Of a stretch of 64,000 nt of DNA, positions 5,454 to 43,542 are shown one piece after another. The notes below the pieces were generated by a model, which worked only from the letters and a program-made list of their open reading frames with translations, made no database searches and was not told where the DNA came from. The first letter of the stretch is position 1; each line of letters starts with the position of its first letter. The stretch is taken from the NCBI GenBank assembly GCA_020444205.1, contig JAHLLJ010000006.1, forward strand, positions 1 to 64,000. The letters run 5' to 3'. This DNA comes from Deltaproteobacteria bacterium. Its GTDB lineage: Bacteria > Desulfobacterota > Desulfarculia > Desulfarculales > Desulfarculaceae. The position numbers and the translations under genes are program-made.

Positions 5454-5788
5454 TTTTTAAAAGACCGTAAACGGTTGTGGGGTTGGGCTTTCCGGCCTCA
5501 CCCCCCCAATGGTATTTGGCGCACTCGGCCTGATTTGAATAATCATCCTAGTGCGCCTTGCGGTTAAGCATCCCGAATAAATTCATGCTTTCAGACGCTT
5601 ACCCGACCCGGTAAGGCTCGGCGGGTAGCGCTTTGCGCCTGGGCAAGCCGGCCGGGATATGCGATTGACACGGTTTAAAACACAGTGTATTGTCTTTCAC
5701 AATCAACACCTTGGGCTGAAGGCCCAGAGAATCGCATAAGGGTAGCCCGTGGCTATCCGCCCAAAAATAGCGCTGATTGGTCATGAAG

Positions 5789-5820
5789 GCCATCCTCCCC
5801 CAGGGAGGGTGGCTTTTTTT
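5789..5820 (+). terminator. Rho-independent terminator
   Basis: GCCATCCTCCC-CCA-GGGAGGGTGGC (11-bp stem, 5789-5813) followed by T7. Confidence 0.8.
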
Positions 5821-9373: not shown

Positions 9374-10274
9374 TTTTTGAAATTCGACTAAACAGAGCCG
9401 CCGAGTCGTCTTGGCCTTATTATGTTGCATGGGCATTTTAACCAAAGGAGTTTGCCTATTCAGATGATGAATTCGAGGCAGCAATAATACGGATTAGGTG
9501 TAAGGTTGCCCTTCCTCAAAAACAAATCAAGCAGAACGTGCAATACACCATTGAGCCCAACGGGTGTAGCGGCATCGACGGCGCGGTGGTTGTGGGTTTG
9601 TGGCCTGTTTGACGCCAAAATATTTAGGAGCAAAGGTTAACTTTTTGAGAAAAAGCCTAGTAATTTTTATTATAAAAACTAATGTTTTTATATTTCTGCT
9701 AGCTTTTTACTCGCAGTACATCCAGCCAAAGATCAACATCGGAAAGGCGAACCGCCTCTAAGCAAGCACTTCCGATAGTAAACTCTTCTCTGCACCATTT
9801 GAATTTCCGTTTATTGAATGAGGATGCAGCTTGCTCAGCCCACAATAAAATATTGTCTCACCAGAGCATCTTTTCAAAATTGAAAGCCCATTGAATCAAA
9901 AATTCTGATCGCGGTAAGTTAACAATCCCAACCCTCGCGCTGGCTAAAAATTAGGGGGTCAATTATGCCGGAGCGGCCGAGGACCCGTCTGCGAAAAATC
10001 AATTGAACCCAATAATTATTAATTTCCAAGCGCTCAAATGATCAGTTCTACCCTGATATTTGACTAATCATTAACCGATATTGCCTTTTTACTAGTACTT
10101 ACCCTCAAAATTATACAAATGCATTACTCTTGGCTATGAAAACGTCTGGTAAAGGCGGATGCTTTTCGATTAGCCGATAATGCAACGCGCTCATAGATGT
10201 TCCAGAAGGTAAAAGCCGAAAAAGTATTTTTCAGCTTTTAAGATATTTAAGTAATAACACTGCAGGAGGGCGGT

Positions 10275-15481: not shown

Positions 15482-15624
15482 TCAGGACGTTTTACTAACC
15501 GAGAGTCATGGCCTCATATTATTTTGAGTAGATGAACCCGCAAAAAGGCAACGCCTGTTAATAATTAGCTAACTATCAGGATAAAACTGATATTTCCGCG
15601 AACAAAAATTAATAATATTAGGGC

Positions 15625-16629
15625 TCAACTGATTCTTCGCAGACGGGCTGTCAACCGCTCCTTATCACCTATCAAACCCAGCTTTTTGCGTATGTTGTTG
15701 CGGTGATACAAGACGCAGCTCAGAGATATATGCAGCATCTCGGCGATCTCGTCACTGGTCCAGCCACTGCGGATCAAGTTGGCCACTTCCAACTCCCGAG
15801 GGGTCAAACCATAAATGGGAGATGAAAGCTTGTTGGCGAAGTCGACGGTCAATTTGTCTAGATTTTTGCGCAGGAGCTCTGCCAAGTTTTTTTGTTCATC
15901 AGTAAGTCTGCTCGAGGATAGCCTTTTGAGTATGGGATCGATAATGCGCGCTTTATTAGCGGCCACTGATTCCTTCAAATTCTCCAGTTGTTCTTCCTGT
16001 TTTTCCAGCAGGACCCTGAGAGCAACGTTTACCTCTTCAAGCTTATCGGATGTCTTTTGTTTCTCTGCGTGGTTCTTTTTCTGTGTGGACAGATCCTCCA
16101 TGGCAAGCAGGTATCCTTCCAATTCATCACCTTCAATAAAAATAGATGCAAGGTAAGCCTGGAAAGGAGGCCGCACTCCCAAAGCGATCTTCAGGGTAAT
16201 TTCCTGCTCAATTTTCCTCCCGTCATATGCCCCTCTGTGCACCAATCGGTGAAAATCCGAAATTGAGCTATCATCAATAAAGGTGGTGAAAAAGCTCCCC
16301 AATAAATGACGCCTGGGTCCAAACAACTCAAGCGCCGCCTTGTTGGCGTCAGCGACTTTCAGGTTTTTATCAAGACGCACTATGGGCAAGGGGTCCAGGT
16401 TGAACAGACGGTAATACAGCCGGTGAGATCGCTCCAGGAGTCTCTGGTTTTCCTGAAAACGTTGATTTTGTAATTCCAATTGTCGGCGGTTTTGGTGCAG
16501 TTCATTGATCAGCCCCATGATGTCCCGAATCTCAGGACTATTAGGCTCAACCCCGTTGGACTCAATAACCTGATCTATTAGCTCGCGCAAACGGGTCCCG
16601 CTTTCTTTCGGACGCTGGGGCATCAGCAC
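15625..16629 (-). CDS. PAS domain, LuxR-type HTH transcriptional regulator
   Basis: YRLFNLDPLPIVRLDKNLKVADANKAALELFG; C-terminal LTPRELEVANLIRSGWTSDEIAEMLHISLSCVLYHRNNIRKKLG. Confidence 0.88.
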   Translation of the reverse strand: MLMPQRPKESGTRLRELIDQVIESNGVEPNSPEIRDIMGLINELHQNRRQLELQNQRFQENQRLLERSHRLYYRLFNLDPLPIVRLDKNLKVADANKAALELFGPRRHLLGSFFTTFIDDSSISDFHRLVHRGAYDGRKIEQEITLKIALGVRPPFQAYLASIFIEGDELEGYLLAMEDLSTQKKNHAEKQKTSDKLEEVNVALRVLLEKQEEQLENLKESVAANKARIIDPILKRLSSSRLTDEQKNLAELLRKNLDKLTVDFANKLSSPIYGLTPRELEVANLIRSGWTSDEIAEMLHISLSCVLYHRNNIRKKLGLIGDKERLTARLRRIS

Positions 16630-17421
16630 CCCCGTTGGTCATGGCATGGATCGTAAAGGGGCAATTTAGCTGGGTTTATGGTGGTCCGGACCCGTGGCAG
16701 GCGTGTTTAACGGAGGGTGATTTGTGTCCTCTGGGTGCGGCCTGGCCCAGCGAAAATGCCCCCCACCTAGCTCCAACCCTATTATTTCTAATAAAAGAGG
16801 AGCAAGCATTTATATAATATTTGAGGGGAAGAACTAGTAAAAAGGCAATACTGGTTATTAATTAGACAAATATCAGGATAAAACTGTTTTTTCGCGTTAG
16901 TTTACGATTAATAAACTAGTGGATTCAGAGAAATTTTCCTAGACGGTTATATTTTCCAGCTATCCAGACGCATCCTCAGGTTAATATTCAACAGAATTTA
17001 AGCTGTATTTACCATAGGGGACTTTATTGTGTAGATGTCCGGATTCACCGGCAGGGAATTTAAGGCATTTTTACGTAGAATGCGCCATAAATATAGGATG
17101 TTATCAACCACCAACAAAAAGCAAATAGCGCAGGTCATGTTGTAATGGGCTATTATTTTATCTTTGCTTTGTTCTATCCAAAATTTACAAAAAAGTACAA
17201 GTTGCTCAAGGTACTCACGCCTATTCGGTGGGGTTGGTTCGGCATTTACATCACCAATTTTATAGTCTTGATTTTTTAATACCAAAACTGATTTTCCCAA
17301 GCACATCACCATGCCCCATGAAAATTCCCTCAAATCCTACCCATGTAATCTTCTAAACTCACCTGGGTTATGCTATAATTTAATTTTAAAGTTATCTAAA
17401 ATATCAAGCGGAGGGCATATA

Positions 17422-19546: not shown

Positions 19547-19822
19547 ACGATAATACTGATCCTGACCAAGTTATGCTGTTTTAAGCTGGCGATATTAAAC
19601 GGAGACAGGCATTTAACTCTGCGTTTACGCACGGGCTGCAGTTAAAAGGCCTATCAAAAATTAGCCCATGAAGACGTTTCCGATGACTACAAAAAATATT
19701 TGAAGAACAGAAGGCAGCCGGGCGGCAGTGAGCGAATTGGGCGGTCCCGATTTTCAAGTACCCCATCCGCACCCGAATAAAAAAGGGGCTAGACCATGTT
19801 GGCCTAACCCCTTGTTATTGCT

Positions 19823-19867
19823 TGGTGCGCCCGGCCTGATTCGAACAGGCGGCCTACGGATTCGTAG
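19823..19867 (-). tRNA. 3' fragment (anticodon loop to CCA) of tRNA-Arg(ACG); candidate att site
   Basis: Minus strand CTACGAA-TCCGT-AGGCC-GCCTG-TTCGAAT-CAGGC-CGGGCGC-ACCA: anticodon loop, T-arm and 3' acceptor strand present, 5' half absent. Confidence 0.85.
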
Positions 19868-19937
19868 TACGTATCCCTTTGATATAACTAATTTAAATTA
19901 CAGGTGCATTGCGACAGGTGTAGCCGAATTGTCGCAG

Positions 19938-21008
19938 TTAGAGGCCCTTGCTGGCCGCGTCGTAGAGGTCTGCCACCAAGGCTTTGGCGTATCTTTCGGT
20001 GGTTGAATAGTGGGCGTGACCAGCAATTTCCTGGGCAACCCTGAGCATCACACCCCGGCTCACCATCCAGGTGATAGCCGTGTGCCTGAGGTCATGCAGG
20101 CGGCAATCAAGCCCGGCCGCGCGGGCCGCCACCTTGAACCAGCGCGTTACCGTGTCTGGCTTGGGCACCACCATCACCGGCTCGGCTATGCCTGAGGGAT
20201 GGGTGGGCATAACCCACACCTGCCCTACTTCGGTCCGGGGCCAGACGCAAATGGGGCCGTCAACCTGATCCTGATCCAGGCCAGCCAAAAAGGCCACGGC
20301 GGCCGGCAGCAAGGGGACCATGCGTTGCTTGTCTCCCTTGCCCGTCACCAGCGCGGCAGGCTTGGGATCCCAAACAATGTGGTTCCAGCGCATGCCAAGG
20401 ACCTCGGCCCTACGCATGCCGGTCCAGAGCAAGAAGCCCCATAGGCGGCGACGGTCTGCGTTAGCTTCGGCCTTTAGCAGGGATTGGGCCTGCTCAGCGG
20501 TCAGATGGCGGGGAAGGTTCTGGGGCTCTTTGAGAAGCTTGATCTTGGGAGCCTTTTGCAGCATGCCCATGTCAAAGGCCCAGTTCAGGGCGCCTCGGAT
20601 ATGGCGCAGGTCCGTATTGACTCCGGCACGGCTCACACCCTGCTGAAGCCTCAGACCGGCCCACTGCTGCAGCTTGCGGGTGGTGAGAGAGCGCAGCAGG
20701 AAGTTCTTACCCAAATCGGCTTGGAGCATGCGTAGCGACACATCATAGCGAGCCAGGCTCTTGGGTTTGATATGCCCTTTGCGTTCACTTAGGTACTGAG
20801 GAATGAATCGGCCGAGGGTCAGCCGCGAAGGGTCCAGACGGGCTAGTTTTTCCTCCAGCCCTGCTTTTTCCAGCTCGGCAACGATGATCTTGGCTTGGGT
20901 TTCTGTCTTGACGGCTGGACCCAACGACTTGTAGCGCCGGCGGTCACCCTCCCACCACTGAAGGTAGTAGCGCTTGCCACGTTTAAAGAAGTTCACGGCC
21001 CTCCTCAT
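19938..21008 (-). CDS. int: Phage-type tyrosine recombinase/integrase
   Basis: TGMRRAEVLGMRW...LHDLRHTAITWMVSRGVMLRVAQEIAGHAHYSTTERYAKA catalytic motifs. Confidence 0.95.
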   Translation of the reverse strand: MRRAVNFFKRGKRYYLQWWEGDRRRYKSLGPAVKTETQAKIIVAELEKAGLEEKLARLDPSRLTLGRFIPQYLSERKGHIKPKSLARYDVSLRMLQADLGKNFLLRSLTTRKLQQWAGLRLQQGVSRAGVNTDLRHIRGALNWAFDMGMLQKAPKIKLLKEPQNLPRHLTAEQAQSLLKAEANADRRRLWGFLLWTGMRRAEVLGMRWNHIVWDPKPAALVTGKGDKQRMVPLLPAAVAFLAGLDQDQVDGPICVWPRTEVGQVWVMPTHPSGIAEPVMVVPKPDTVTRWFKVAARAAGLDCRLHDLRHTAITWMVSRGVMLRVAQEIAGHAHYSTTERYAKALVADLYDAASKGL

Positions 21009-22552: not shown

Positions 22553-22700
22553 GCAAGTCAATCCTAACCCGGGCTCCCTGCCTTACCCTGCCATGGCGCG
22601 CGACGCCGTCCGTGCAGACGGCGGTCGTCAATTACCCTAATCTGTTCGGTGATGCGCCGACCGGCTCTTGTGCTTGCTGCAAACGCCGGGAAGCCTTCTC
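22553..22700. repeat. Dispersed repeat family A, copy 1
   Basis: GCGCGACGCCGTCCGTGCAGACGGCGGTC...GCGCCGACCGGCTCTTGTGCTTGCTGCAAACGCCG. Confidence 0.75.
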
Positions 22701-22767
22701 CTGCGTTGGGACAAGACCAACTGCCATCGCTTCGCGACCAACAGGCCCGGCCGGACCGGGTGGCGGC

Positions 22768-24126
22768 CTACTTGTCGGTCAGCAGGTCCACGTCGCCGCT
22801 GGTGCGGCGGTCGTGCTCGATCTGTTTGTCCAGGGAGGGATCGAGCTCCACGTCGGCCGCGCGGGCGTCCTGCATGAGCCCGTCGTGTGAGGAGGGCGTA
22901 TCGGGCGACGCAGCCTCGGACGGCGCTGAGATAACCTTGCTGATGGGCACGGGCACGTCCACCCCGGCTTGGTCCAGGGCCTCCTTGAGCATGCGCACCG
23001 CCTCGCTACGCACCTTGATGAAGTCGGCCGTCCCCTGGTCTACCCAGCCGAAGAAGCGCACCAGCATGGCGCTGTCGCCAAACTCCAGGTTGCGCATGCC
23101 CGGCGGGGGATCCTCGGCCACCCCATTCATGGCCGTGAACACATCCCGGCCGATTCCGGCCACCCGGGACAGGTCTTCCTCCACCCCGATGCCCACGTCG
23201 ATGTCAAAGCGGCGCAGGGGATTGCGGGTGTAGTTGTAGACGACGCTTTTAAAGACCTGGGAGTTGGGGATGCGCACGTGGTTGCCCTGCAGGGTCATGA
23301 TGACCAGCTCCCGAGCGGTGACCCGCACCACGCTGCCCTGGTGGTCCCCCACCGCGATCCAGTCGCGATAGGCGAAGGGACTGCGCACCCCCAGCAAAAA
23401 CCCGGCCACGTAGTTTTCGGCGATGTCCTTGAAGGCGAAGCCCAGGGCCAGGCCCAGGATGCCCGCCGCGCCCATGAAGGCGCCGATCAGGGCGGTGAGC
23501 CCCAGGATCTCCAGGGCCACCAACAGGCCCAGGAACAAGAAGGCGTAGCGCACCATTTGGCGCACCAGGTTTTGCAAAAGCACCTTGTCGGCCAAGCGGC
23601 GGTATAGCAAATCCCAGGAGGTGGCCCAGCGCCCGGCCAGGTAGAAGGCCAGGGTAACCAGGGCGGCGAGGCCGATCAGGGGCGCGAAACCCAGGACCTG
23701 GTCCCCTATCTGGCGCAGCTTGCGCCAAGCGGGGGCTATGTAGGAGCCCACATGGGCCTCCACCGCGATGTTATCCACCACGTAGACCACCCCCGCGATC
23801 TTGGCGGCCATGTCCACCGCTTTCTGGTTGGCCGCGAAGGAGGCGGTGTCGCCGCTGAGCACCACAACCCCATGGGACACCTGGGCCTTGATGCCCTTGA
23901 ACTCGGGCACCCGGGCGAATACGGCGGTCAGGGTGCTCTGGATGGCCCGGTCGGCCGCCGCGCCGGGCTGGAGCTCCGGCTTGCCCACCTGGTCCCCGGC
24001 CAAGGCGGGCAGAGCCAGGCCGGCCAGCAGGAGCATCGCCGCCAGCAGCGGGGTCCATTTCCTCAGGAACGCCCTCAAATCGCCATCCTTTGGCCTGATG
24101 CCCGGTGCAGGGATGCCAGCTTCCAT
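22768..24126 (-). CDS. BON-domain MscS-type mechanosensitive channel
   Basis: Signal peptide, BON-like segment, MscS TM3 and beta domain (MGAAGILGLALGFAFKDIAENYVAGFLL...NHVRIPNSQVFKSVVYN). Confidence 0.92.
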   Translation of the reverse strand: MEAGIPAPGIRPKDGDLRAFLRKWTPLLAAMLLLAGLALPALAGDQVGKPELQPGAAADRAIQSTLTAVFARVPEFKGIKAQVSHGVVVLSGDTASFAANQKAVDMAAKIAGVVYVVDNIAVEAHVGSYIAPAWRKLRQIGDQVLGFAPLIGLAALVTLAFYLAGRWATSWDLLYRRLADKVLLQNLVRQMVRYAFLFLGLLVALEILGLTALIGAFMGAAGILGLALGFAFKDIAENYVAGFLLGVRSPFAYRDWIAVGDHQGSVVRVTARELVIMTLQGNHVRIPNSQVFKSVVYNYTRNPLRRFDIDVGIGVEEDLSRVAGIGRDVFTAMNGVAEDPPPGMRNLEFGDSAMLVRFFGWVDQGTADFIKVRSEAVRMLKEALDQAGVDVPVPISKVISAPSEAASPDTPSSHDGLMQDARAADVELDPSLDKQIEHDRRTSGDVDLLTDK

Positions 24127-24250
24127 CGTGGTGAATCCCGGTTAACGCCAACGCGTAAACCAGTCCCCCAAGGGAATTTTCCAGGATAGAAAGAGGCCGT
24201 ATATGGTAATTCCCAATGCGCGTTCGATGTTAGCGCTTGCCCTTCCCCCT

Positions 24251-24356
24251 AGTCAATCCCTCGGCCTGCTCGCCCCGCAGCCCCCTGCCCTGCCGGCTTA
24301 GCGCCCACCAGCCCTTGTGCTTGCTGAAAACACCGTGGTCTTGAATTCCGGCGAGT
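24251..24356. repeat. Dispersed repeat family A, copy 2 (lacks the hairpin core)
   Basis: GTCAATCCCTCGGCCTGCTCGCCCCGCAGCCCCCTGCCCTGCC then GCGCCCACCAGCCCTTGTGCTTGCTGAAAACACCG. Confidence 0.65.
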
Positions 24357-24467
24357 AGCGCCGCCGGGAAGATTTGTGCCCGCTTGATCGCTTGGTCACG
24401 GATCACATCTCTCGCGAAATTTACTCGCTTAAAGAGGTGTCCATTGAACTGGGCAGGACCAATAAGC

Positions 24468-25604
24468 TTAATGATCCGGTTCGCCCATTTTTCGCAGCCA
24501 GCGGTAATGGGCCGCGATACCCGACCAAAACGAACGGTGCTCCCTGAAAGCCAAACCATGATCCCGACAAGTTTGCTCCACGATGCTGCTGATTGCGGGA
24601 TAATGGGCATGGCTGATGGTCGGGAATAAATGGTGCTCTTTGTGGAAGTTCAAGCCGCCGAACAACCAGCTCACGATGGGGCTGCGGCGGGCATAATCCA
24701 CGGTCACGCTTGACTGATGAACCGCCCAAGGTTTTTCCATCCGCCCCGTGTCGCGGTTCGGTAGCGGGAAATCCGCCTCTGCCACGCAATGGGGCAATTG
24801 AAATACGATGCTCAGGAACCCGCCCAAGACCAAGACACCAATGCCATAGTAAAAAAGAACCGCATACCAGGGGTGGAAAATCCAGGGTATCAACAGTGCC
24901 CAGATGAAAAAAGCGGCTTTCCCCGCCACGAAAACCACCAGTTCATGGGTAGTGGGCCGCGGAAAGCGATGCTTGCCCACGCCACCCATGATCATCTTTT
25001 GAAAATCGCCGACAAACTCCCAATGGACAGCCAAGAACCCGTATACGAACCAAAGATAAAAGTGCTGCCAGCGATGAAAGGGCAGCCGCTTCTGGTGCGG
25101 CGACAGCCGTCCCAGGTAGCCCAAATCAATATCCGTGTCGTAGCCGGTGATATTGACGTAGCGGTGATGGACCACGGCGTGCTTCCAAAACCACATGTAG
25201 GAGCTGCCTCCGACCAGGTCCATGGTCCAGGCCATGATTTTGTTGACCCATGGCGTCTTGGCGTATGCCTTATGCCCTGCGTCGTGGGCGATGTTGAACC
25301 CAATGCAGGCCGTGGACAGTCCAAGCAAAAGAACAAGGAGAAGGCCTTGCAAAAGGTTTTCAGCCACGAACACCAGAAGAAAATAAGAGACCGCGAAGCT
25401 GGTCAGGATGATCGCGGTCTTAAGGTGCAGCCTCCAATCGCCCGCCTTGGAGCGCCCGCCTCCTTGCTTAAAATATTGGTTGACCCGTTGGCGCAGATCG
25501 GTCTCAAAGTCCTTATCTTGGCCGAACTCCAACTTCATAATCGTTCTGTGGGCTGGATTCGGCTGATTTGGGTTTGGCGGGGAGGGTTCCTGCCGTAGGG
25601 TCAT
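24468..25604 (-). CDS. Membrane fatty acid desaturase
   Basis: His boxes HDAGHKAY, HAVVHHRYVN, HKEHHLFP. Confidence 0.93.
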   Translation of the reverse strand: MTLRQEPSPPNPNQPNPAHRTIMKLEFGQDKDFETDLRQRVNQYFKQGGGRSKAGDWRLHLKTAIILTSFAVSYFLLVFVAENLLQGLLLVLLLGLSTACIGFNIAHDAGHKAYAKTPWVNKIMAWTMDLVGGSSYMWFWKHAVVHHRYVNITGYDTDIDLGYLGRLSPHQKRLPFHRWQHFYLWFVYGFLAVHWEFVGDFQKMIMGGVGKHRFPRPTTHELVVFVAGKAAFFIWALLIPWIFHPWYAVLFYYGIGVLVLGGFLSIVFQLPHCVAEADFPLPNRDTGRMEKPWAVHQSSVTVDYARRSPIVSWLFGGLNFHKEHHLFPTISHAHYPAISSIVEQTCRDHGLAFREHRSFWSGIAAHYRWLRKMGEPDH

Positions 25605-25702
25605 GCGAACTCCATTGGATGGTCACGTTGGGTCACGGGGGGGTGATCAACACTGACGCCGGGTTCAACCGCCATCACCCTGCCCAAACAGATTAATTTC
25701 AA

Positions 25703-25815
25703 TTATGCGGCAGTCGCCGCGTTTCATTTCGTTTTGAGCCTTCTGATGATCCCGATGCATTCCGTCACGCAGTTGGACCGCATCTACCAACTTCATTACC
25801 CAATGATTGGCAGGC
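25703..25815. repeat. Dispersed repeat family A, partial copy (left part)
   Basis: ATTATGCGGCAGTCGCCGCGTTTC...CTTCATTACCCAATGATTGGC resembles the starts of the copies at 27.68 and 29.07 kb. Confidence 0.5.
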
Positions 25816-25837
25816 AGGGCCTGCACAGGTCTATATC

Positions 25838-25950
25838 TTGTGAGGGTCTGGATTTGACAAAGAAGAAGCTAAGGCGGCACCCCATCAGCTAACTCATGCC
25901 CATGGTTCGCTTCAGGGGCTTGGGATCACCAGACCCCCTAAAATTTCATA
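25838..25950. repeat. Dispersed repeat family B
   Basis: GTGAGGGTCTGGATTTGACAAAGAAGAAGCTAAGGCGGCACCCCATCAGCTAA...TTCAGGGGCTTGGGATCACCAGACCCCC, related to 26390-26470 and 32700-32860. Confidence 0.55.
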
Positions 25951-25955
25951 ACAAA

Positions 25956-26216
25956 TTATATCTTACCCTTGGCAACCAGATATATGCCAAACCCCAAGCC
26001 GGCTAAAGAAACCGCGCAAGCCAGCCAAGTAATGAACAACCAATCGTCCCCAATGACTGATGGGAAATACCGCCTGACAAAGAAAAACACGTAATTGGAC
26101 GCTGTAAGGACGCACGCGGATGTCAACATCCTTACCGTGTATTTCTTAATGAATGTGTAAACGCAGGCGGCGCCCAGAATTACCTGAATAATTGCCAAAA
26201 TTTCTGCCATGCCCAT
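25956..26216 (-). CDS. Small multi-TM membrane protein
   Basis: 86 aa, three hydrophobic segments. Confidence 0.65.
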   Translation of the reverse strand: MGMAEILAIIQVILGAACVYTFIKKYTVRMLTSACVLTASNYVFFFVRRYFPSVIGDDWLFITWLACAVSLAGLGFGIYLVAKGKI

Positions 26217-26449
26217 TTTTAACCTCTCAACACTTTAGTCAATTTAAGTTGTCCTGCAATCGTTACTCTATCATTTGCTGCGCTCAAATCCGTAAAGGGA
26301 ATTATCCCTTCTTCATTGTAACAAAAAAGAGCGGAAGTAACCTTACATGCCCCCTGACCAGCCTACTAAACTTCGCCCAGACAATAAGTTAGTCCAGTTC
26401 AGGGGCTCGGAATCACCAGCCCCCGAAACTTCTAGGCACCCGGGAGATA

Positions 26450-26640
26450 GCCCGTGTCACAGGCGAGAGTCAATCCCCTCGGCCTGCTTGCTCCGCAGCC
26501 CCTCCCTGCCCTATCCCGTTATGGTGCGCGACGCCGTCCATGCAGACGGCGGTCACCAATCACGCGCTCTATCCGGCAGTGCGCCAACCAGCCCTTGTAT
26601 TTGCTGAAAACGCCACGCCGGTATCGCCCGGGGCCGGGCG
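26450..26640. repeat. Dispersed repeat family A, copy 3
   Basis: GTCAATCCCCTCGGCCTGCTTGCTCCGCAGCCCC...GCGCGACGCCGTCCATGCAGACGGCGGTC...GCGCCAACCAGCCCTTGTATTTGCTGAAAACGCC. Confidence 0.75.
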
Positions 26641-26684
26641 CGGGCATGCGAAAGGACGGCCGAAGTGAGAGCTGACTCCCTGCA

Positions 26685-27056
26685 TCAATAGTTGCGCGAC
26701 AACTCCTCTCGCAGTACCTCGGCGTTGTTGCGCTCCCTGTCCTTGGCCGCATAAAGCAATGTGACCACGTCCACATCGATCTCCTGGGCCAACTCCAGTA
26801 GCTTGGCCTTCTTGGTCTCGGCCTTCAGCTCCAGGCGGTATCGTCTCTTAAATTCCTTCCAGCGGGCGGGGTCGTGTCCGAACCATTGGCGCAGCTCGTC
26901 GCTCGGGGCTAGTTCCTTGAGCCAGCCAGCCAGGGATGCCTGTTGTTTGCTCACCCCGCGAGGCCAAAGCCGATCGACCAAATAGCGCTTGCCGTCAGCA
27001 GACTCGACTGGATCATAAATTCTCTTGAGGCGTGGGCCCTTGCCTTGCATGGTCAC
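26685..27056 (-). CDS. DUF488 family protein
   Basis: LKRIYDPVESADGKRYLVDRLWPRGVSKQQASLAGWLKELAPSDELRQWFGHDPARWKEFKRRY. Confidence 0.93.
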   Translation of the reverse strand: MTMQGKGPRLKRIYDPVESADGKRYLVDRLWPRGVSKQQASLAGWLKELAPSDELRQWFGHDPARWKEFKRRYRLELKAETKKAKLLELAQEIDVDVVTLLYAAKDRERNNAEVLREELSRNY

Positions 27057-27067
27057 CTCGGGCGTTG

Positions 27068-27616
27068 CTATTTCTCCGCTTCGTAACCTTCGACCTTGTC
27101 CTGGAAGAAGTGATGGATAAGCTTGCGGTCGAACTCGTAAAAGTCTGCAAGCATGCGGTCCATCTCCTCCCGGTTGAAGTACTCCATGACCGGGAAGAAA
27201 AAGCGCTTGTCCTCCTTTTCAATGTGCTCAGGGTAAAAGCCGGCAAGCTTTTCCAATAAGCGAATTATCTCTTGGGTGCCGGTGCCTGTGTCTCTATAGG
27301 TTAAGTTGGCTTCGTTCAGGCTTTTCACCATGCCGCGACCAAGTTTGTGCTCCTGGACCAACTCGTCAGTTATGGCCGATAGCTCGGGAGGGAGCTCTTT
27401 GTTACGCAACTCCACGAAAAGCAGGTCTTCTTCCTTGCCGTGGTGGCAGCGGTCGGCATAGACACGAAAAAACTCCACCGCGTCCGCGATGAACTTCGAG
27501 TCCGGCTCAGCGCCCCCCTGAAGTTGCTTGGCTTGTTTTTGAATCAGGTCTACCATGCGCTCAATCAAGCGGTGTTCATGCATTAAGGGACCTATCGGTT
27601 GCATTACGGCCTCCAC
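27068..27616 (-). CDS. Hemerythrin HHE-domain protein
   Basis: MHEHRLIERMVD...HHGKEEDLLF...EHKLGRGMV...YPEHIEKEDKRFFF. Confidence 0.93.
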   Translation of the reverse strand: MEAVMQPIGPLMHEHRLIERMVDLIQKQAKQLQGGAEPDSKFIADAVEFFRVYADRCHHGKEEDLLFVELRNKELPPELSAITDELVQEHKLGRGMVKSLNEANLTYRDTGTGTQEIIRLLEKLAGFYPEHIEKEDKRFFFPVMEYFNREEMDRMLADFYEFDRKLIHHFFQDKVEGYEAEK

Positions 27617-27671
27617 ACAGCCGGATTTGTCGGCTCTCCGGCCGATTTGATTTGGTTATGCTTGTCTAATC

Positions 27672-28035
27672 TCTAATTATGCGGCAGCCACAGCGATTCG
27701 CCCATATTGAGCCTTCTGCCGCCCTCGCTGCGCTCTGTCACGCGTTTGGTCCGCAGCCAAAGGCTTCATTGCCTACCAGACAAAGCAATTGCTCGCTCAA
27801 ACCCCGGCGATAACCGCAATCTCCAGTATTTTTATATGGTAATCCACCTCATTGACCCCGGTCAATCGACCACCTCCCGACCGCCCCTCCCCTGCCCTGC
27901 CCCACCATGGCGCGCGACGCCATCCATGCGAGCGGCGTTCACCAACCACGCGCTCTATCCGGTAGTGCGCCGGCCAAGCCTTGTGCTTGCTGGAAACGCC
28001 GCGCAGGCATCCCCCGGGGCCTGGCGCAGCTATTG
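27672..28035. repeat. Dispersed repeat family A, long copy 4
   Basis: Near-identical and colinear (offset 1400 bp) with 29072-29435. Confidence 0.9.
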
Positions 28036-28174
28036 GTTAGTATCCGTCGACAGGGGACCGTGCCAGGCCGCGGGCATGGCGGAGGGACAGCTTAGGCCAG
28101 TTCTAGCGGGAGCAATACACCGTCACGAATAGATCACGGGACGGCGGACGTTGGCTTGCGCGGGAGCTCGGCCC

Positions 28175-28984
28175 CTAGTTGATGGTGACCGTGGGCTTCA
28201 TGGCCCGCTTGGGGTTCTTTTCCGCAGCCTGGAGCAGCTTGGCCACCTGGTCCTGGGGCAGCCAGCGCACCTTGCCGTGGGCCAGGTCGTAGATGGCGCC
28301 CACCACCATTACCTTCTTGGCCGTCACCATCTCCCGGGTGGCCGGGCTCATCAGGAACAGGTCGCTGATGGCCTGCCACACGTTCTGCTCGATGGCATAG
28401 GGCACGATCTGTGCCCCCTTGACCTGGGGGTGGGCCTTCATGGCAGCCTGCACCGCCGGGAAGATGGGTTCCACCAGGGGCGGGATGTTGCGCTCCAGGG
28501 TGAGGCGATTGCCCTGGGCCGCGGCAGCCACCGCGGCCACCGCGCCGCAGCGGGTGTGGCCCAGCACCACCAGCAGCGGGGTCTTCACATGGGCCAAGCC
28601 ATACTCGATGGTGCCGACCTCATCGGTCTGGGCCACGTTGCCCGCCACCCGCACTACGAACAGGTCCATGATCCCAGCGTCAAAGATATGCTCCAACGGC
28701 ACTCGCGAATCCGAGCAGCTCAGGATGGTGGCATAGGCGTACTCGGCCTGGTTGGAGATATCGGCCAGCTGGATGCGTGCCGCGTCCTGATGTTCCCTCA
28801 GGGGCTCGCCCGCTAAAAAACGGGCGTTGCCCGCCTTGAGCATGGCCAGGGCTTGCTGGGGGGTTGGTTCGATGAGCGCTTTTTGGGCCAGGGCCGGAGG
28901 CGGGCTTGCCAAAAGCAAACTCAGCAAGGTGATTAGTGCCGCCGCACCCAAGCTTTTGGTAAACATGATAGCTCCTTTATTCAT
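28175..28984 (-). CDS. Periplasmic beta-class carbonic anhydrase
   Basis: Signal peptide; ILSCSDSRVPLEHIFD...VLGHTRCGAVAA zinc-ligand motifs. Confidence 0.93.
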   Translation of the reverse strand: MNKGAIMFTKSLGAAALITLLSLLLASPPPALAQKALIEPTPQQALAMLKAGNARFLAGEPLREHQDAARIQLADISNQAEYAYATILSCSDSRVPLEHIFDAGIMDLFVVRVAGNVAQTDEVGTIEYGLAHVKTPLLVVLGHTRCGAVAAVAAAAQGNRLTLERNIPPLVEPIFPAVQAAMKAHPQVKGAQIVPYAIEQNVWQAISDLFLMSPATREMVTAKKVMVVGAIYDLAHGKVRWLPQDQVAKLLQAAEKNPKRAMKPTVTIN

Positions 28985-29071
28985 GGCGAGTCGGGCCGCA
29001 TATTGAGGGCACCCGGACTGGAAGCAGGCCGGGCGCGTTAATTAAGGGTCATCTATCTAAAGGAACCAACC

Positions 29072-29435
29072 CATATTATGCGGCAGTCGCCGCTCTTGAC
29101 TTCGTTTCGTGCCGTTTGGCGCTCCTTGCGCGCTCTCCCACCCGCTTAGGCCGCACCCACAGGCTTCATTGCCTACCAGACAAAGCAATTGCTCGCTCAA
29201 ACCCCGACGAGAATCGCAATCTCCAGTATTTTTATATGGTAATCCACCTTACCGACCCCGGTCAATCGGCGACCTCCCGACCGCCCCTCCCCTACCCCAC
29301 CCCGCTATGGCGCGCGACGCCGTCCATGCAGGCGGCGTTCACCGATAACGCTATCTATCTGGCAGTGCGCCGGCCAGGCCTTGTGCTTGCAGAAAACGCC
29401 GCACTGCTACAATCCGGAGGCCTAGCGCATTGGAC
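29072..29435. repeat. Dispersed repeat family A, long copy 5
   Basis: AGGCTTCATTGCCTACCAGACAAAGCAATTGCTCGCTCAAACCCC...TATTTTTATATGGTAATCCACC shared with 27761-27893. Confidence 0.9.
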
Positions 29436-30173: not shown

Positions 30174-30596
30174 CTATTTGTTTTGCTTCTTGAATTTGTC
30201 GAAATTGAAATTAACTGCTTTTGTTGGCCATAGTTTATATCCATAGTTTTCTTCTCCCGTATAGCGAGTAGGATTAAGGCTCATCACATAATCATAAATT
30301 TCCTGTGTAATGCGGGAGGAAGGTGTTTCATTATATAAAATTATTTCACGCCTATACATTTTTTTATCTCGGTGCCACCACAATTTTCCAGCCACGGCAT
30401 TAGTTTGGTCCTTGCCAGGATCAGTTATGCGTTTTACCGCGGGATCACCAGGCATTATTTCGCATGGAACATTTATAGCTTCTGCTATGGATGCCGCCAA
30501 ACATAGCATCACCATTATCGATAATATAATAAGTACTCTACTCATCATCGCTTGGTTCCTCCAACCCCAGATTATACGGCGCCACCTACGTTTCAC
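30174..30596 (-). CDS. Secreted small protein, surface-adhesin-E-like
   Basis: Signal-like MMSRVLIILSIMVMLCLAASIAEA; DKKMYRREIILYNETPSSRITQEIYDYV. Confidence 0.5.
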   Translation of the reverse strand: MKRRWRRIIWGWRNQAMMSRVLIILSIMVMLCLAASIAEAINVPCEIMPGDPAVKRITDPGKDQTNAVAGKLWWHRDKKMYRREIILYNETPSSRITQEIYDYVMSLNPTRYTGEENYGYKLWPTKAVNFNFDKFKKQNK

Positions 30597-30767
30597 TTAA
30601 TTTGAAGTCTTCTAAAAGACCATTGTGATCACTGGCGCTTAGTTAACTCCTCAGTATCAGAGTTGCTTCTCCTTGCCCTTGTCCGCCCCTACCGTTGGAC
30701 GCCATCGTCTAAACGGTGAGGTTGTTGGGGTGTCCAGGCAACCTGCCGCCTGGGCGCCACTACGTCC

Positions 30768-32654: not shown

Positions 32655-32699
32655 AACACTTCATCTCCCTGAGCAGGTAGGTATGGTTAGGCCTGGTTT

Positions 32700-32860
32700 T
32701 TGTGAGGGATTGTGATTAGATACCAAGGAAGTTAAAGCGGCCCCCACCAGCTAAAACGTGTGTCTGATCGATCTCAGGAGCAGGCGAACCACCAAATCCC
32801 CTGGAATTTTCTAGACAAGCGGAATGATAGCCTGTGTTTTAGGTGATAGTCAATCCTTGG
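32700..32860. repeat. Dispersed repeat family B
   Basis: GTGAGGGATTGTGATTAGA...CCCCACCAGCTAAAA...CTAGACAAGCGGAATGATAGCCTGTGTTTTAGGTGATAGTCAATCC; resembles 25838-25950 and 26390-26470. Confidence 0.5.
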
Positions 32861-32938
32861 GCCCTTCCTCCAGCTTCAGCACCAGGCTGAGCAGGCCGGC
32901 CGCGGCCGTGATAAGGGCAGTGGCCACCAGGTGTCTAA

Positions 32939-41706: not shown

Positions 41707-42667
41707 TTGTCCGGCTACTCGCAGATAAGGGGCGACCAGCTTTGGTATCAGCTTGCGCAAAGCGGGGTGGATGCCAACGCCCGCAATTTGTTTTTCTTCC
41801 TGTTGGCTCCGGCCAATGAGCGGCCCACCGCCGGGGTGCGCCGCTACCTGCCAACCGAGCCCCTGACTTTCATGCCGGAGTGGGACCAGGAAACGGCTCT
41901 GCAAGCGCTGAGCGCCCTGGAGAAAGCGGGCCTGGTCCTCTATGACCACCAAGCCGCGCTGATCTGCGTTCCCCTCCTGCTGGAAATGCAGCCCTACAAG
42001 GGCCACCCAGCGGTGGCCGGTGCCATGGCCTCCTTGGAGGTGTACCCCGACTCGCCAGTGATCATCCCCGCCCTGGAGCACCTGGCGGCCGCGGCGCGGG
42101 AAGCGGCCAAGACTGCGCGGGAGAAGGCCCAGGGCGACTCCAAGCGCCAAGAGGCGGCCCTGCGCTCTGCCGAGCAGGCCGAGGAGATCGCCCGAAACCT
42201 GGAGGCCCGCCTTGAGCGGGTAGACAACCTGGCCCGCGTCACGGATACCCCCCCGGGGGGGCATCCGGGGGGTATCGAGGGGGGCTGCGAGCCAACCGAA
42301 CAAGGGCAAATACCCCCCCGAGGGGGTATCGAGGGGGTATCGAGGGGGGGTGCGCCCGGAGAGGAAAATGAGGCGGATTCGCCCGAAAATGCCCCGGCAG
42401 AGGCCCCCCCGAGGGGGTATCGAGGGGGCCCCGGGGGGGTATCGGGGGGGTATCCTCGCGCGCGCGGGGGTGCGGCCACGCGGCCAGCATCGCCGCCGAG
42501 TGCATGGGGGGTATCCTCGCGCGCGCGGGGGTGCGCGCGGTCCCGATCCCGAACCCGAACCCGAGCCCGAGCCCTCCGGAAGGGAACCCCCCCATGCCCC
42601 CCCTTCGGCCCGTGGCGGCCCACCCCAAGCGCTGGGCCAAGTCCTGGACAAGGCAAGAGGCAAGTAA
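41707..42667 (+). CDS. Phage replication initiator-like protein (winged-helix-like N-terminus); 3' reading frame uncertain
   Basis: LWYQLAQSGVDANARNLFFFLLAPANERPTAGVRRYLPTEPLTFMPEWDQETALQALSALEKAGLV; frame +1 at start, frame +2 gives a natural C-terminus and stop at 42667; as written, frame +1 fuses to the downstream gene. Confidence 0.55.
42244..42515 (+). repeat. Iteron-like GGGGGTATC array; candidate replication origin
   Basis: Seven direct G5-7 TATC copies with TATC at 42273, 42327, 42338, 42418, 42440, 42451, 42512, plus inverted GATACCCCC at 42244. Confidence 0.6.
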
Positions 42668-42696
42668 AAAACAAGGCGGCCGAGGAGGCGAGAGAC

Positions 42697-43542
42697 ATGC
42701 AGGCACAAGCAAACCAAAGGCACCGACCGGACGCCCCAACCCGGAAACCGCACGGGCGCACCCAAAGGCCACCCGATGGGCGGTGCAGGCATTGCGGCGC
42801 AGTCACCAAGCCCCTTCGCATCGAGTCGGCCTATCACGCCGAAGGGGTTCACTGGCTGGAGCCGTCCACGCTCTGCGATGCTTGCGCGGCCCAGATGCAA
42901 GGCGCCGGAGACGAGCAGGAGCGTGGCCTTGCCTGCCGAAGCATCTTGACCAAGGCGGGGCTGCCCGCCTCCCTGCGAGGCTGGGACTTTGCCCAGGCCT
43001 GGGACGCGGCCCAGGCGTTCAAGGCGGGCGAGGACCTGGCCGGGTGGCAAGGGGCCTGGCAAGAGTGCAAGTCCTGGCACGGTGGGCGCACGGGCCTGCT
43101 TTTGCAAGGCCCGGCGGGCACCGGCAAGAGCGTGTTGGCGGTGTGCGCCCTCAAGGCCTGGGTCTTGGCCAAGGGCGAGAGCGCGGTTTTCCTGGCCGTG
43201 CCCGAGTGGTGCGGGCATATCGAGCGCCGCGACCGGGCCGAGGCGCGCGAAATGGTGCGCCAGGCCCTGGGCGCCGGCTTGGCCGTGCTGGACGACCTGG
43301 GGGTGGAGCGCATGCCCAGCGAGGCCCAGCGCGAGGCGGTGCGCATCATCGACCGCCGCCAGGCCGATGGCCGCCCCACCCTGGTGACCACCAACGCCGA
43401 CGTCGCGGAGATCGCCAAGCGCTTCAGGCGGGCCGACGCTCACGGGCGCTTTGCCGACCGCCTGACAGCCTATTGCCGCCCGGTTCAGGTGCCCGGGCAG
43501 AGCTTTAGGCGGCTCAAGGCGGCGGCGGGGGTGTGGTCTTGA
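42697..43542 (+). CDS. DnaC/IstB-like AAA+ helicase loader
   Basis: ATG at 42697 with GAGGAGG 8 nt upstream; zinc-finger-like CRHCG...CDAC; Walker A GPAGTGKS; GLAVLDDLGVER; TTNAD. Confidence 0.85.
   Translation: MQAQANQRHRPDAPTRKPHGRTQRPPDGRCRHCGAVTKPLRIESAYHAEGVHWLEPSTLCDACAAQMQGAGDEQERGLACRSILTKAGLPASLRGWDFAQAWDAAQAFKAGEDLAGWQGAWQECKSWHGGRTGLLLQGPAGTGKSVLAVCALKAWVLAKGESAVFLAVPEWCGHIERRDRAEAREMVRQALGAGLAVLDDLGVERMPSEAQREAVRIIDRRQADGRPTLVTTNADVAEIAKRFRRADAHGRFADRLTAYCRPVQVPGQSFRRLKAAAGVWS

Follow-up and report, generated by a model that had tools for sequence, protein, structure and literature searches.

The direct repeats between the cargo genes of this 64,000-nucleotide stretch of DNA (hereafter the window) are real, but judged by sequence comparison they are copies of a decayed IS1380-type end joined to a scrap of the end of a pirin gene. 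The account that we consider probable is that this fossil pirin/IS junction was duplicated and has since acted as homology for the exchange of cargo. On this reading, the unit itself is neither a mobile element, an RNA gene nor a site-specific recombination site, and the suggestion of a new structured mobile repeat is removed as a false lead. A single dead IS and a scrap of a dead gene, once duplicated, could in this way split a cargo region into exchangeable modules.

Each unit is built from three parts: an IS-derived outer arm, a hairpin spacer of ~75 nt and a pirin-derived inner arm. The copies, the cargo genes between them and the neighbouring prophage are listed below, with the support for each in brackets.

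22556–22700, minus strand: copy 1, hairpin spacer with a very short pirin-derived end (73–78% to copies 3, 4 and 5 and to the sister copy).
22701–22755, plus strand: IS1380-type transposase fragment LRWDKTNCHRFATNR, directly after copy 1 and on the opposite strand (tblastn, 67% aa; blastn, 82–85% to transposase loci L039/L076 and L030).
22768–24126, minus strand: MscS-type mechanosensitive channel with a BON domain (Pfam; 94% to the sister contig where covered).
24202–24335, minus strand: copy 2, which has lost the hairpin stretch but retains the conserved box (alignments; sister copy 94% over 24272–24335).
24468–25604, minus strand: fatty acid desaturase, without a counterpart in the sister array (Pfam).
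25691–25800, minus strand: isolated IS1380-family 3′ end ("partial copy"), without a core (nhmmer, E = 1e-20).
26466–26670, minus strand: copy 3, spacer with a perfect hairpin and a short pirin 3′ end (alignments).
26685–27616, minus strand: DUF488 protein and hemerythrin, common to the sister array (Pfam; 93%).
27675–27892, minus strand: copy 4 outer arm, degenerate IS1380-family 3′ end with the terminal repeat at its left (nhmmer, E = 2e-38; blastn to L011 through 27915).
27893–27966, minus strand: copy 4 spacer, broken hairpin (alignment, fold tests).
27967–28110, minus strand: copy 4 decayed pirin 3′ end, the longest kept in this genome (73% to the pirin gene of G006, E = 3e-7; shuffle p ~1e-10).
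28175–28984, minus strand: carbonic anhydrase, with a trypsin-like protease at this place in the sister (Pfam).
29068–29292, minus strand: copy 5 outer arm, IS1380-family 3′ end (nhmmer, E = 8e-40).
29293–29430, minus strand: copy 5 spacer with hairpin and a short pirin-derived end (alignments).
36460–62850: contractile-tailed prophage, with repressor-like and CII-like regulators, sliding clamp, helicase loader, terminase, portal, head protease, major head protein, sheath, tape measure and baseplate.

Self-alignment of the window revealed direct repeats near 22.57, 24.29, 26.50, 27.89 and 29.29 kb, confirming the five copies between cargo genes that an initial annotation had described. The colinearity of copies 4 and 5 at an offset of exactly 1400, part of the same description, was reproduced over 292 nt at 85% identity; copies 3 and 4 aligned over 143 nt at 81% with a spacing of 1386, and copies 1 and 2 were joined by shorter matches. 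A common core had been assigned to all five copies, and in copy 2 its box and flanks are indeed kept, but the hairpin stretch is absent; furthermore, the sequence at 25.70 kb, previously read as a partial copy of the core, contains no core and has only the IS-end arm (25702–25800) in common with copies 4 and 5. With copy 5 as the query against its own genome, the other copies were recovered at E-values from 5e-95 to 4e-4 (copies 4, 3 and 1 at 5e-95, 8e-29 and 8e-17, respectively), far beyond chance. All of these matches lay on this contig save one 55-nt IS-end fragment on contig C44, and apart from that fragment the family is limited to this 7 kb of the 4.4-Mb assembly.

Besides this array, the full unit turned up only in its syntenic counterpart in one sister genome (G005, contig C12), so that the copies are bound to one locus in two sister genomes rather than dispersed, as they had been called. 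A pattern scan of genome contigs detected the box twice only in JAIPDO010000108.1 (Desulfarculaceae bacterium Tobar13.5m-G25), with the two boxes spaced as in contig C12 of the sister genome; three single box matches in unrelated phyla were about the chance expectation. Two matches on viral contigs were discarded as unrelated phages without further similarity.

We then traced each arm of the unit to its source. In copies 4 and 5 the outer ~210 nt correspond to a degenerate IS1380-family 3′ end that is scattered across the genus, and so does the partial copy at 25.70 kb. This arm (TTATGCGGCAGTCGCCGC...) recurs at many unrelated sites in same-genus genomes (family Desulfarculaceae), and in several relatives it continues into a transposase C-terminus, read on the opposite strand, that matches Pfam PF13701 (E = 6e-22), which we take to be the transposase type of IS1380 elements. 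A DNA profile made from the genus copies of the arm and run with nhmmer against the window matched 29068–29272 (E = 8e-40), 27675–27872 (E = 2e-38), 25702–25800 (E = 1e-20) and, weakly, 30564–30641. In pairwise blastn comparisons, one relative (L011) stayed similar up to 27915 and 29315.

One IS terminus was recognised in many copies; the second terminus and the 4–5 bp target duplications expected of the family were not recovered from these decayed copies. The transposase copies of the genus are broken or partial, a search of the family for an intact IS1380 element returned fragments only, and a search of a plasmid collection returned only distant transposases. An associated transposase, one of the features to look for around the repeats, is represented by the 55-nt fragment after copy 1, but neither the array nor the rest of this genome yielded an intact transposase or element. 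Because there is no transposase gene beyond this fragment, the outer arm is, as far as its sequence tells, an IS1380-family remnant and not an element.

The arm shares homology with the 3′ end of an element with a PF13701 transposase C-terminus, as in the IS1380 family (ISEcp1 and ISEc9 included). The sequence at its end, CCAGATTATGCGGCAGT, is similar to that of the ISEcp1 end, CCTAGATTCTACGT, which is the reverse complement of the ISEcp1 IRL (PMC12116815), and as with ISEcp1, the IS end sits upstream of a cargo gene. Unlike in IS1380 elements, however, ~210 nt of the 3′ end are left here with no transposase and no target duplication seen, no intact copy was found in the host's family, and the unit additionally contains the pirin gene end and the spacer.

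The inner arm is derived from a pirin gene, whose final codons, decayed and reverse-complemented, make up the most conserved box of the unit, CTTGTGCTTGCTGAAAACGCCG. In a comparison of the region with same-genus loci, window positions 27968–28074 matched G006:C1:679041–679150, where an intact pirin gene (PF02678 and PF05726) has its 3′ end, at 73% over 107 nt (E = 3e-7). Read on the minus strand, the conserved box (CTTGTGCTTGCTGAAAACGCC) gives GVFSKHK, compared with GTFIKHKA-stop in the intact pirin. The similarity in copy 4 and in the sister copy covers ~110 nt and ends close to the pirin stop codon, with shuffle p-values of ~1e-10 and ~1e-16, respectively. Similarly, a protein search with pirin independently found the sister copy (56% aa identity, E = 9e-4, two stops in frame). 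Elsewhere in the genus, intact pirin was found in just two genomes.

The pirin sequence is long enough for significance by itself only in copy 4 and the sister copy; the corresponding stretches of copies 1, 2, 3 and 5, individually too short, would share this origin through their homology to these two. Pfam gave no match on the short pirin fragments, as expected of their length. The inner arm thus resembles a pirin 3′-end pseudogene (PF02678/PF05726) in its homology to the last ~35 codons and its end near the stop codon, and differs from one in being present in several copies, in having lost the stop codon and frame, and in having no full gene adjacent.

Between the two arms, the ~75-nt hairpin spacer is explained by neither the IS nor the pirin source. 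A derivation from transposase codons (HGRR and WL..RI, noticed by eye) was rejected, since the resemblance was no better than for shuffled sequence at the DNA or protein level. The GCCGTC-CATGCA-GACGGC palindrome of the spacer is perfect in copies 1 and 3 only, and its basal pair is broken in the sister-genome copy. Much of the stem had been proposed to stay paired in copies 4 and 5; copy 5 retains the hairpin with a G-U pair, and two pairs are broken in copy 4. Fold energies of the unit were unremarkable for both strands (z from −1.3 to +1.1), an Rfam scan gave no match, and none of the six hairpin pairs (0/6) had changed on both sides among the five sequences. We found no evidence of selected structure in the unit, five sequences giving little power, and its description as structured finds no backing in these folds or in covariation.

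A new dispersed structured repeat, either MITE-like or an RNA element, is thereby left with a very small share of the probability. The five intergenic copies and the palindrome, perfect in two of them, do recall MITE, REP and BIME sequences, which are likewise non-coding intergenic repeats with a small palindrome; but the unit occurs at a single locus, known from two sister genomes, it showed no paired terminal repeats and no conserved structure, and both of its arms have been traced to other sources. The initial annotation recognised no known element, and end to end the whole unit indeed matches none that is named; its outer arm nevertheless goes back to an IS of the IS1380 family, and its core is, in the right half, a decayed pirin 3′ end, so that derivation from a known IS largely holds.

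We compared the array with that of the sister genome, whose contig is syntenic with window positions 23.7–42.7 kb. The MscS-type channel gene and the DUF488–hemerythrin pair showed 93–94% identity between the two, whereas the sister array has no desaturase and instead carries a MASE3 histidine kinase gene after the channel gene, ahead of the following repeat. The same repeats are therefore found with different cargo modules between them. Furthermore, the sister repeat at 2405–2498 resembles copy 2 on the left and copy 3 on the right, with the switch inside the box common to both, and this junction looks like a crossover between two repeats. These two genomes suggest an exchange of cargo around the repeats.

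The probable course of events can be outlined from the arrangement of the parts. On the minus strand, the decayed pirin 3′ end is followed by the ~75-nt spacer, with an imperfect palindrome that would have arisen by chance, and then by the IS1380-family 3′ end with its terminal repeat. We infer that this junction formed once and was duplicated before the two sister species split, because most copies are ~73–85% alike compared with 93% for the orthologous modules. The copies may since have served as homology for RecA-type recombination, adding, removing and swapping cargo modules; homologous recombination is suggested by the comparison of two metagenome draft assemblies and by one clear hybrid junction. 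IS1380-type one-ended transposition may additionally have brought individual cargo genes, since the IS end of copy 4 points towards the start of the cargo gene that follows. It does not, however, account for the repeated occurrence of one and the same truncated junction.

One-ended transposition has been reported for ISEcp1/ISEc9 (PMC12116815), and a member of the IS1380 family whose right end faced a cargo gene could have moved genes here repeatedly in this manner, leaving only its 3′ end beside the cargo. We regard such capture as unlikely to account for the array. The terminal repeat of copy 4 does precede the hemerythrin start by ~60 nt, the same arrangement as between ISEcp1 and its downstream gene, and an IS-end fossil likewise lies beyond the start of a hemerythrin paralogue on contig C44. 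Transposition of an intact element, however, would not repeat the same truncated pirin/IS junction; copies 1–3 are without most or all of the IS arm, and the array offers neither an intact element or transposase nor recognisable target duplications. Still less probable, in our assessment, is a site-specific cassette array, in which the conserved box would be the att site of a tyrosine recombinase, each cargo module would have integrated at it and a copy of it would be left at each junction, as in integrons and tandem genomic islands. This model would accommodate the single module per repeat, the tyrosine recombinase 1.5 kb to the left (19938–21008), the common location of att sites at 3′ gene ends and the switch of the hybrid sister repeat within the conserved box. 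It is opposed by the homology at the repeats, which is far longer than a crossover site and unevenly decayed between copies, and by the recombinase itself. This enzyme, of the phage-integrase type, scored 43.7 bits on the integron-integrase model TIGR02249, far below the cut-off of 265 bits, and its likely att site is a stretch just downstream of its gene (19780–19872) that looks like a tRNA 3′ end, with a TTCGAA T-loop; this gives the recombinase a target other than the repeats.

Stretches similar to this one recur in every genome of the genus, the pattern to be expected for tRNA genes and att remnants; an ARAGORN scan of the window returned no tRNA. The integrase score and the likely tRNA att site led us to reject an integron, and no attC boxes or R-box pair were seen by eye. 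The array is like integron cassette arrays in its short modules, mostly in one direction between direct repeats, and in contents that vary between relatives, and unlike them in having no integron integrase by score and repeats that come from IS and gene fragments.

The duplicated fossil junction, which we continue to prefer as the explanation, lies between the tyrosine recombinase and phage repressor-like, replication and contractile-tail genes (36–63 kb), and the array may represent the cargo-bearing part of a prophage or island. Somewhat speculatively, it could be regarded as an integron-like array without an integron, in which an island or prophage lineage uses the fixed, non-coding junction fossil as a repeated docking sequence with which to gain and swap small stress-related gene modules beside its integrase. 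If cargo changes in more sister genomes prove to be confined to the repeats, the locus would provide a clean natural case of repeat-mediated shuffling without an integron.

Several further fossils and repeats were observed in the window and its relatives. The hemerythrin paralogue, on contig C44 of the same genome (L008:8475–9112), is 86% identical at the nucleotide level to window positions 27033–27670, and IS1380-type 3′ end fossils lie near it at L008:9518 and 13335. A fossil 5′ end of an IS3-type transposase gene (24337–24462, minus strand) abuts copy 2 exactly; the related locus L070 reads RRRYSPEFKTEALGL, and relatives at 71–89% occur in G004, G008 and contig C44. A second repeat (TTCAGGGGCTNGGNATCACCA...), which also leads into AGTCAATCC, occupies 25811–25954, 26390–26512 and 32698–32863 of the window, and in the sister contig it lies at 5580–5793, beside a further core-like stretch. 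A cluster of short repeats of the type ATACCCCCCCGAGGGGGTATCGAGGGGG (42245–42467) was located inside the helicase-loader frame (41707–43542). Outside the cargo array, another diverged repeat of 56–74 nt occurs in direct and inverted copies at 9970–10109, 15523–15661 and 16820–16893, including a 67-nt inverted pair at 87%.
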